Assembly (NCBI GenBank): GCA_913046365.1
Contig: CAJWRM010000012.1
Coordinates: 1-64,000 of the forward strand
Reading direction: 5' to 3'
Source of the DNA: an uncultured Flavobacteriales bacterium
Lineage (GTDB): Bacteria > Bacteroidota > Bacteroidia > Flavobacteriales_D > Crocinitomicaceae
DNA length: 64,000 bases
Made by a program: the position numbers and the translations under genes. Below the pieces are notes generated by a model that saw only the letters and a list, made by a program, of their open reading frames with translations, did no database searches and was not told the DNA's origin. This document shows positions 24,777-49,709 of the stretch, in pieces; position 1 is the first letter of the stretch, and every line of letters starts with the position of its first letter.

Positions 24777-26549
24777 TTATTTTTTCTTATCCATTTTTTC
24801 TTTCAACTCCGCCAATGCGTCAAGATCTCCAAGTGTAGATTTCTCAGCATTCTTGTTGACAGCATTTAGATTGCTCGTGCTGGATTTTCTCGATGGTCTT
24901 GAACTCGTTGCAGGCTCAGAGTGCTCCTCGTGCGTTCTGATATGTGAAACAACGATTTTTCTTGCATCTCTATTGAACTCAATCACCTTAAAGTCAAGAA
25001 CGTCTTCAACTATCGCGTTGTTTCCGTCAGCTTTCTTTAAGTGCTTGGCTGGACAAATTCCCTCTAAACCATATGGTAAAGAAACAATTCCTGATTTGTC
25101 TTTCATTTCAATGATGGTTCCATTATGAACAGTCCCTTCAGCGAAAGTCGCTTCGAATACTTCCCATGGATTCTCTTCAAGCTGTTTGTGGCCTAAAGAA
25201 ATCCTTCTGTTTTCTTGGTCAATCTCTAAAACAATCACTTCCATCGCTTCTCCAGTTTTGCAGAATTCAGATGGGTGCTTGATTTTCTTTTGCCATGAAA
25301 GGTCAGAAATGTGGATTAATCCATCAACTCCTTCTTCCAATTCAACGAAAACACCAAAGTTTGTGAAGTTTCTAACTTTTGCTGTGTGCTGCGTATTAAC
25401 CGCATACTTAGTATCAATGTTACTCCATGGATCTGGCATTAATTGCTTAATTCCAAGAGACATTTTTCTTTCTTCTCTATCTAAAGTTAATACAACTGCT
25501 TCAACGGAGTCTCCAATTTTCATAAAGTCCTGTGCAGAACGTAAGTGCTGTGACCAACTCATTTCAGAAACGTGAATCAATCCTTCAACACCCGCTGCAA
25601 TCTCTATGAAAGCACCGTAGTCAGCCATGACAACTACTTTACCAGTAACTTTGTCACCAACTGCCATTTCAGTATCTAAAGAATCCCATGGATGTGGCTG
25701 AAGTTGTTTCAATCCAAGAGCAATTCTTTTCTTCTCATCATCAAAGTCAAGAATAACTACATTGATTTTAGAATCTAATTCCAACATTTCCTCTGGATGC
25801 GAAACGCGTCCCCACGAAAGGTCCGTGATGTGAATTAATCCATCAACACCACCTAAATCGATAAACACACCGTAAGAAGTAATATTCTTTACGATACCTT
25901 CAAGAACCTGTCCTTTTTCAAGGCCAGAAATGATTTGTTTCTTTTGCTCTTCAAGTTCTGCTTCGATAAGCGCTTTGTGCGAAACAACAACGTTTCTAAA
26001 TTCTTCATTGATTTTGACAACTTTGAATTCCATGTTTTTTCCAACATATACATCATAGTCACGGATCGGCTTAACATCTATTTGAGAACCTGGAAGGAAA
26101 GCTTCGATGCCAAACACATCCACAATCAATCCACCTTTAGTTCTGCATTTAACATGACCAGTAATTACCTCTCCTGTTTTCAAAACTTCATTTACGCGAA
26201 TCCACGCACTGTGCATTCTTGCTGTTTTGTGAGAAACGATTAGCTGACCTGTTTTATCTTCTCTACATTCTACATAGACGTCTACAACATCACCTATTTT
26301 AAGATCCGGATTGTAACGGAATTCATTTGCAGCAATTACACCTTCGGATTTGTATCCGATATTAATAATAGCTTCTTTTTTGGTAAGATGTACGACTGTG
26401 CCTTTGATTACCTCTTTTTCGTTGATCGACGTTAAGGTTTTTTCATAAACGTCAGACATTTCTGACCTTTCTACTTGACTGTAGCCATCTAATTGAAGTG
26501 CTTCCCAGTCGAAATCTGCAGTTCCCTGCGTTGTTTTTGTTGTTGCCAT
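24777..26549 (-). CDS. rpsA: 30S ribosomal protein S1
   Basis: Multiple S1 repeats (GVFIDLGGVDGLIHITDLSWGRVSHPEEM, GAFIEIAAGVEGLIHVSEMSW, GVFVELEEGVDGLIHISDLSW). Confidence 0.96.
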   Translation of the reverse strand: MATTKTTQGTADFDWEALQLDGYSQVERSEMSDVYEKTLTSINEKEVIKGTVVHLTKKEAIINIGYKSEGVIAANEFRYNPDLKIGDVVDVYVECREDKTGQLIVSHKTARMHSAWIRVNEVLKTGEVITGHVKCRTKGGLIVDVFGIEAFLPGSQIDVKPIRDYDVYVGKNMEFKVVKINEEFRNVVVSHKALIEAELEEQKKQIISGLEKGQVLEGIVKNITSYGVFIDLGGVDGLIHITDLSWGRVSHPEEMLELDSKINVVILDFDDEKKRIALGLKQLQPHPWDSLDTEMAVGDKVTGKVVVMADYGAFIEIAAGVEGLIHVSEMSWSQHLRSAQDFMKIGDSVEAVVLTLDREERKMSLGIKQLMPDPWSNIDTKYAVNTQHTAKVRNFTNFGVFVELEEGVDGLIHISDLSWQKKIKHPSEFCKTGEAMEVIVLEIDQENRRISLGHKQLEENPWEVFEATFAEGTVHNGTIIEMKDKSGIVSLPYGLEGICPAKHLKKADGNNAIVEDVLDFKVIEFNRDARKIVVSHIRTHEEHSEPATSSRPSRKSSTSNLNAVNKNAEKSTLGDLDALAELKEKMDKKK

Positions 26550-26640
26550 TGGGCTGTTAACATTTGTATTTCAAGGCTCCTTATTCCTTGAAAGGGTTTA
26601 TATGGGTCACATAATTAAAGGAGGGTGACCATTTTGAGAG
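26550..26640 (-). ncRNA. Putative structured rpsA 5' leader (two hairpins with complementary loops)
   Basis: Minus strand: GGTCAC-cctcctttaattat-GTGACC (26630-26605) and TTTCAAGG-aataaggag-CCTTGAAA (26593-26569); loop CUCCUU complementary to loop AAGGAG. Confidence 0.45.
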
Positions 26641-26642
26641 TG

Positions 26643-26650
26643 CAAAGATA
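26643..26650 (-). promoter_or_regulatory. Predicted -7 element of rpsA
   Basis: Minus strand TATCTTTG (TAnnTTTG), about 11 nt upstream of leader hairpin 1. Confidence 0.5.
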
Positions 26651-26714
26651 GGGAATTCTTTAGAATAAGAAAGACTTTTACTAAAGTGAATTGAAAATAA
26701 TTAGAAGGCCCTAA

Positions 26715-27299
26715 TTAATTGTCATTTGGATTGTTCGGGAATTTAGAAATCATTTTAAATTTCCCTTGTTGCATTTCGAGCGCTGTTTTCCATAAATCTT
26801 CATGGTTTGTATCTAAAATAAGCTTGTGGTCTACGTTGTTCACTGTAATCCAAGAATTTTCTTTTAATTCAGCATCTAACTGCTCAAGATCCCAACCGGA
26901 GTAACCTATAAAGAATCGGATTTTTTCTCGCGCCGATGGTGTTTTTTCTAAAACGGCACAAATCTCGTCAAAATCTCCTCCGTAAAATAGATTTTTTTGT
27001 ATTTGCAACGAATTTGAAATCTTATTCCCAAATGAATGAATAAAGAAAAGACTATCCTTAGATACGGGGCCTCCAAATCCAATTTTAGCATTGATATCAG
27101 GGAAATTGGCGTCAATTTTATGTAAATCTATTTCTGCAAAATTATTTAGTACAAAACCAAAGGTTCCCTCCTCATTGTGTTCACATAGCACAACCACAGA
27201 TCTCCCAAAATACGGATCGTTTAGAAAGGGATCGGATATCAAAACGCTCCCTTTTTTGGGCCTTTCATTATTGGTAAATGAAAAGTTTATTTTCTTCAT
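26715..27299 (-). CDS. YqgE/AlgH family protein
   Basis: KKGSVLISDPFLNDPYFGRSVVVLCEHNEEGTFGFVLN, FFIGYSGWDLEQLDAELKENSW; start adjusted from 27323. Confidence 0.9.
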   Translation of the reverse strand: MKKINFSFTNNERPKKGSVLISDPFLNDPYFGRSVVVLCEHNEEGTFGFVLNNFAEIDLHKIDANFPDINAKIGFGGPVSKDSLFFIHSFGNKISNSLQIQKNLFYGGDFDEICAVLEKTPSAREKIRFFIGYSGWDLEQLDAELKENSWITVNNVDHKLILDTNHEDLWKTALEMQQGKFKMISKFPNNPNDN

Positions 27300-48599: not shown

Positions 48600-48779
48600 A
48601 ATGAAATGTTTTAAAAGGTTAAACAATTCATCATCAAGAGAAATGTAAATGGGATTCGCTATTTGTTTTTAGGTGCGAGCCTCTCATCTTTTTTCCACCG
48701 TGCCCTGCGAAGGATCGGTTGGCATCCGTGACTTTCACGGAACTCTTAATGATATTCTGCTATACTAACGCAAGAAGTT
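48600..48779 (-). repeat. Imperfect direct repeat, copy A (5' leader-like)
   Basis: Matches 49531-49709 with scattered substitutions; contains hairpin CCGTGA-ctt-TCACGG (48726-48740). Confidence 0.85.
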
Positions 48780-49530: not shown

Positions 49531-49709
49531 AATGAAAAGTTTTAAAAGGTTAAACAATCCATCATCAAAAGAAAGTAAAATAGGATTCGCGGTTTGTTTT
49601 TAGGTGCGAACCTCTCATTGTTTTTCCACCGTGCCCTGCGAGGGATCGGTTGGCATCCGTGATTTTCACGAAACTCTTAATGATTTCTATTCCATTAACG
49701 TAAAAACTT
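49531..49709 (-). repeat. Imperfect direct repeat, copy B (5' leader-like)
   Basis: Pair of copy A, 931 bp apart, same orientation, same position relative to downstream start codon. Confidence 0.85.

Follow-up and report, generated by a model that had tools for sequence, protein, structure and literature searches.

We found that the rpsA gene, coding for ribosomal protein bS1, is preceded in the window (the whole 64,000-nt stretch of DNA analyzed here) by a leader whose conserved structure, predicted with high confidence, consists of two hairpins and a loop-loop (kissing) helix between them. Judging from the comparison of sequences, this two-hairpin kissing shape has been preserved, with drifting letters, in well over a hundred species, and the rpsA kissing leader is almost certainly a real RNA control element, apparently one that has not been described previously. 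Translation initiation in Bacteroidota takes place largely without Shine-Dalgarno (SD) pairing, and bS1 is among the proteins suspected of compensating for this; to our knowledge, how bS1 synthesis is set in the phylum has not been described. The element would be the first S1 leader known to us in Bacteroidota, and, having a loop-loop helix as its conserved core, a rare kind of ribosomal-protein leader (r-leader). Together, the kissing leader in the order of the window and a variant in Flavobacteriaceae provide a concrete, mutable target, Flavobacterium itself included.

The whole arrangement lies on the minus strand. The rpsA gene (24777-26549; 590 aa, six S1 domains) has an AlgH-like DUF179 gene upstream and a Fur-family gene downstream, and is the only ribosomal-protein gene downstream of the leader. 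A -7 box of the Bacteroidota sigma-A type, TATCTTTG (26643-26650), occurs at the same place in nearly all relatives' rpsA leaders. Since the sigma-A box of F. psychrophilum, TAnnTTTG, sits at -12 to -5 (PMC9723704), transcription is predicted to start at about 26638, 8 nt ahead of hairpin 1 and thus upstream of it, as the sequence-only reading of this DNA had required. Counted from this predicted start, the leader measures about 89 nt, which is long by comparison with the median of 24 nt for flavobacterial leaders (PMC9723704). Hairpin 1 (26605-26630) is formed by GGUCAC (26630-26625) and GUGACC (26610-26605) around a 14-nt loop, CCUCCUUUAAUUAU (26624-26611). It is followed by an A/U-rich single-stranded linker, CAUAUAAACCC (26594-26604), a composition also seen in relatives, and by hairpin 2 (26569-26593), in which UUUCAAGG (26593-26586) and CCUUGAAA (26576-26569) enclose a 9-nt loop, AAUAAGGAG (26585-26577). 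The kissing strands are CUCCUU in loop 1 (26623-26618) and AAGGAG in loop 2 (26582-26577), a perfect complement with a duplex energy of -6.2 kcal/mol. Hairpin 2 is followed by UACAAAUGUUAACAGCCCA, with an unpaired, near-invariant UACAA (26564-26568, that is -19 to -15 from the AUG) directly 3' of the hairpin; the rpsA AUG lies at 26549, 19 nt past hairpin 2. Direct reading of the minus strand (about 26638-26550) thus bears out the hairpins, the loop complement, the -7 box and the spacing before rpsA as they had been reported from the sequence.

Minimum free energy (MFE) folding of the window leader returns exactly hairpins 1 and 2. Its energy (-18.7, against -14.0 +/- 3.0 expected from composition; z -1.56) is ordinary for the composition, so that the window sequence alone does not exclude chance. 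We found no terminator or attenuator on the rpsA strand in 26500-26750, the sole terminator-like site (26517-26530) being on the opposite strand. Elsewhere in the window, two SAM-I/IV riboswitch aptamers lie about 900 nt apart on the minus strand (48654-48757 and 49586-49688).

Concerning conservation, we read the rpsA leaders of 33 genomes of the window's genus, of other genera of its family, of 12 further families of the order, and of other families of the class. All leaders read in the order (13 families) share the same plan, namely promoter box, hairpin 1, A/U linker, hairpin 2, UACAA and AUG, and it is found in Lishizhenia tianjinensis, Brumimicrobium species and Crocinitomix catalasitica among other named carriers, which points to a Crocinitomicaceae genome as the source of the window. 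In rpsA, the closest named record, a Crocinitomicaceae MAG, matches it at 99%, and an uncultured Flavobacteriales MAG at 100%. Few parts are kept as letters: the promoter box, the UUUC/GAAA or UCUC/GAGA at the base of hairpin 2, the invariant C at its foot, preceded by the U/A-rich last 8 nt of the linker (65 leaders), and UACAA, each of its positions agreeing in 67 or 68 of the 68 leaders; the search was anchored on ACAA, but all leaders of the order had ACAA. The two stems and the loop helix are instead kept as shape, the latter mostly of 6-7 bp with a mean duplex energy of -7.1 kcal/mol. Hairpin 1 lies no more than about 10 nt from the predicted 5' end, and the distance from hairpin 2 to the AUG has a median of 19 nt (interquartile range 18-20, n=76). 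The letters of the loop helix change freely: beside the CUCCUU/AAGGAG of the window, its family has CCCUGAA/UUCAGGG, CUCUAUA/UAUAGAG, CCUAUUC/GAAUAGG, GUUCGG/CCGAAC and GUUUCGU/ACGAAAC, for a total of 50 distinct loop-loop helices within this family alone, and other families have helices such as GCGGCA/UGCCGC, UUACAGC/GCUGUAA, GUGGUG/CACCAC and UCAGCC/GGCUGA.

The sequence-only reading had proposed a kissing-hairpin RNA ahead of rpsA and suggested looking for covariation among related leaders. We found that both stems and the loop helix are indeed kept by compensatory change across relatives. For this we used a structure-registered, N-padded alignment of 47 leaders, plain MAFFT alignment of whole leaders mis-registering hairpin 1. 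Changes on both sides occur at 19 of 19 pairs, comprising all six of hairpin 1, all seven aligned positions of the kissing helix, and all six outer pairs of hairpin 2. Both-side cells number 405 against 112 in shuffled data, where cells are leaders and not independent events, the 13 families carrying different helices. The covariation score is 1.079, compared with 0.234 for shuffled and at most 0.174 for slid alignments. Of all cells 99.3% are paired, compared with 55.5% after shuffling and no more than 47.7% after sliding; the percentage is inflated by the N-padding of the rows and by a kissing register that had itself been obtained through a search. In the outer pairs of hairpin 2, G-U combinations outnumber A-C ones by 37 to 2, an excess that points to a sense RNA and is only supportive, G-U having been permitted in detection.

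Two further tests are free of the register and padding bias of the alignment. In the first, blind to kissing, hairpins were picked by plain MFE folding in 84 leaders; this version replaced a naive stem score, which had placed hairpin 1 wrongly in roughly one leader out of four. A leader's own loops share at least 5 consecutive Watson-Crick pairs in 52% of cases, against 1.9% for the loops of unrelated leaders (z 19.4, own versus permuted loops). In the second, a joint search for hairpin 1 and the kissing helix was run identically on real leaders, chimeras and shuffles, and a kissing score of at least 12 was reached by 89% of the real leaders, compared with 11% after swapping and 17% after shuffling. 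Five non-redundant leaders (L011, L093, L096, L099, L100) gave no kissing solution in this automatic search, and show 4 to 8 bp by eye. In eight leaders the loop helix uses up both loops completely, as in classical kissing complexes, which favors simultaneous helices over alternative folds. Plain MFE folding prefers in some species an extended duplex using the loop strands, and the RNA may alternate between folds instead of holding three coexisting helices.

The window also has a possible 3-bp mini-hairpin around the start codon, GCC-CAAU-GGC (26545-26554, minus strand). In 58 of 68 leaders, a GCC is found no more than 8 nt away from the start. A few leaders (L111, L114, L116) have a longer mini-hairpin or parallel changes in it, and it remains suggestive only. 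In some relatives (L111, L114, L116, L219), where the second codon differs, the upstream half of the GCC-NNAU-GGC arrangement is changed as well (UUCAGA/UCUGAA, UCAGA/UCUGA).

The element is specific to rpsA and single-copy where tested. A pattern search (linker, hairpin 2, UACAA) of 60 genomes recovered 14 rpsA leaders; the five matches elsewhere all lie inside open frames. A covariance model built from the alignment, R1, has a single match in the window's own genome, the rpsA leader; its matches elsewhere are rpsA leaders with one exception inside an ORF, and none occurs in Bacteroidales controls, the model being insensitive (23-36 bits) because of the alignment padding.

Outside the order, a variant form whose hairpin 2 is larger occurs in two families, f17 (61 genera sampled) and f16 (27 genera). 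The former is likely Flavobacteriaceae, since uL4 of its member G346, a Flavobacterium, is identical at 203 of 209 positions to the F. johnsoniae chain of 7jil, and the latter would be Weeksellaceae. As the A/T richness of these leaders makes the longest complement over whole regions non-discriminating, we compared loop halves. In f17, pairing of 3' half with 3' half reaches at least 5 bp in 88% of leaders versus 8% of swapped ones, and pairing of 5' half with 5' half is weaker (46% versus 14%); in f16, loop-half pairing is weakly discriminated in these crude tests. G346 has an 8-bp loop-loop match. In a set of f17 leaders (L211-L240) two loop complementarities are found that would cross each other, one between 5' halves (for instance AGCGA/UCGCU) and one between 3' halves (for instance UCGGAA/UUCCGA); they would imply a fold knotted further or a pair of alternative states. 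About a dozen leaders of this set have 20-50 additional nt between UACAA and the AUG. In a leader from a further family (f18, L127), UACAAAC comes after a UGUGUAU-loop-AUACACA hairpin, and farther 5' there is a UUUUAUA/UAUAAAA match; judging from this leader, the element may reach into another order. The rpsA leaders of Bacteroidales (L183-L200, L202-L205, L209, L210) lack the element and are short. Some 20-30 nt ahead of the start, most of them share AUAAUGUCUAAC and, after it, a stretch resembling UUAAUU, which may be a separate element for the control of S1. In class-level relatives (L118 and L119 of family f14, L120 of f15), rpsA has an SD-like AAAAGGAG or AAGGAGGA near its start, which is unusual in Bacteroidia.

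The position and conservation of the leader suggest that it probably regulates rpsA translation, and analogy makes bS1 a plausible candidate, favored on balance, for its ligand. Control by bS1 is suggested by the fact that rpsA is the sole ribosomal-protein gene behind the leader, and by the precedent of gamma-proteobacterial bS1, an autogenous repressor of rpsA mRNA that competes with the 30S subunit where a strong SD is absent (PMC10931766). The reading that we rather favor is thus a cis-acting kissing leader that would control initiation of rpsA translation in feedback with its product. The kissing complex, whose compact fold ends at -20, would sit just where the initiating 30S subunit has its upstream edge, presenting UACAA and A/U-rich single strands next to the presumed contact of bS1 with mRNA. 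Free bS1, when in excess, would attach at this site and keep the RNA in its compact form, shutting the 30S subunit out from the start; with little bS1 present, ribosomes would load and S1 would be made. In E. coli structures, domain 4 of bS1 lies near mRNA positions -12 to -15, and in F. johnsoniae an A at -12/-13 aids initiation, with bS1 as the suspected reader (PMC6847099). UACAA, at -19 to -15, adjoins this stretch. Against this reading, S1 often unfolds RNA, from which activation and not repression would be expected, and Bacteroidales rpsA is regulated or started without a kissing element. We nevertheless lean towards bS1 as a repressor, over an activating role and over a preference of S1-free ribosomes for the leader.

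The last of these options may take the form of a sensor of ribosome composition, the kissing leader being an entry platform preferred by 30S subunits that lack bS1, so that S1 is made as S1-free ribosomes build up, a counterpart of the way in which bS21 controls rpsU through bS21-less ribosomes. The fixed 19-nt spacing to the AUG, the conservation of shape and not of letters, and the finding that bS21-less ribosomes favor rpsU in F. johnsoniae (PMC9976891) are all consistent with it; r-leaders, however, usually bind the free protein, and we judge such a sensor rather unlikely. A more doubtful version is an IRES-like docking module, its shape being read by bS1-lacking 30S subunits and rpsA being translated by a specialized ribosome sub-population in which SD pairing plays no part; S1 supply would then track the number of S1-free ribosomes. 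A 5' kissing complex might also act without any feedback, by guarding the mRNA against decay or by keeping the start open as a constitutive enhancer. The closeness of hairpin 1 to the predicted 5' end (about 10 nt or less) and the high expression required of rpsA would suit such a stabilizer, but one stable hairpin would suffice for it, and a precise loop helix at a fixed distance from the AUG, found at rpsA only, exceeds the needs of a 5' cap hairpin, making this explanation unlikely as well.

Much less can be said for the remaining alternatives. A riboswitch or thermometer, responding to a small molecule or to temperature, could use a compact tertiary RNA contact beside the start codon, but there is no conserved pocket, almost no letters being conserved beyond UACAA and the linker, no Rfam match, and the gene encodes a ribosomal protein; we regard it as very improbable. 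The sequence-only reading had drawn attention to the SD core in loop 2 and to its anti-SD-like complement in hairpin 1, which resembles the 3' end of 16S rRNA. In a reading of this kind, loop 1 would act as an anti-SD and mask the AAGGAG of loop 2 from the ribosome. The CUCCUU/AAGGAG complement of the window is perfect, but these letters are confined to its closest relatives (L001-L005), and unrelated complementary pairs take their place elsewhere. Moreover, the 3' end of AAGGAG lies about 27 nt ahead of the AUG, too distant for a normal SD, and Bacteroidia 30S subunits hide their anti-SD (PMC9976891), leaving SD sequestration extremely improbable. The likeness to the 16S rRNA 3' end, which we did not find in the assembly of this genome, is incidental, since the equivalent helix beyond L001-L005 uses different letters. 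To chance complementarity with no function we give next to no credence: the single-sequence fold is non-significant, but the joint search, the kissing-blind test and covariation all contradict it, the permuted-loop z score and the both-side changes in every pair being decisive. As for the two short upstream ORFs that had been proposed as part of the control, MVTLL* (from 26632) and the out-of-frame AUG at 26563 do exist, but neither their conservation nor a control role was borne out. The frame of the former is without an early stop already in the close relative L002; the AUG of the latter, at -14, is seen in L001-L005 only, other leaders having scattered AUGs with no pattern.

Structure and genomic context are best read as those of a new ribosomal-protein leader, with a covarying 5' UTR structure on a ribosomal-protein gene and a consistent association with rpsA only. 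Rfam 15 contains no relevant match to the leader at gathering or relaxed threshold; the only relaxed match nearby, HOTAIR_1 (26706-26734), is far below its own threshold and due to chance. No S1 leader or kissing element in Bacteroidota was found in open-access papers, and an earlier description may exist beyond these. Like the rpsA leader of gamma-proteobacteria, the present one is a structured 5' region of the same gene, uses no canonical SD, and has A/U-rich single strands at the start; the E. coli leader is, however, described as a specific fold having a weak SD but no kissing complex (PMC10931766), whereas two hairpins and a loop-loop helix are predicted here. Flavobacteria and Bacteroidia also have r-leaders for S4, S15, S16, L13 and L19, similarly conserved RNAs directly before one ribosomal-protein gene in the same phylum, but none of the 20 r-leaders of that study is for S1, and its text mentions no kissing loop or pseudoknot (Eckert and Weinberg, 2020; PMC7247131). 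In F. johnsoniae, which belongs to the same group, the loosely bound 30S protein encoded by rpsU controls its own translation through extended SD pairing with a freed anti-SD (PMC9976891), whereas the SD letters of the rpsA leader are not conserved. Leaders of rpsO (S15) also have two hairpins or loop pairing on the mRNA of a 30S protein, as a pseudoknot in E. coli and, by a prediction for this one species, as a kissing loop in M. tuberculosis (PMC8470358); they differ from the present leader in protein, phylum and sequence. The predicted M. tuberculosis form is the nearest structural precedent that we found. The classical kissing complexes RNAI-RNAII and TAR-TAR* have loop-loop helices of 6-7 bp that at times consume the whole loop. 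The kissing helix of rpsA is similar in length, but it would be intramolecular, lies in a ribosomal-protein leader, and lets its letters drift freely.
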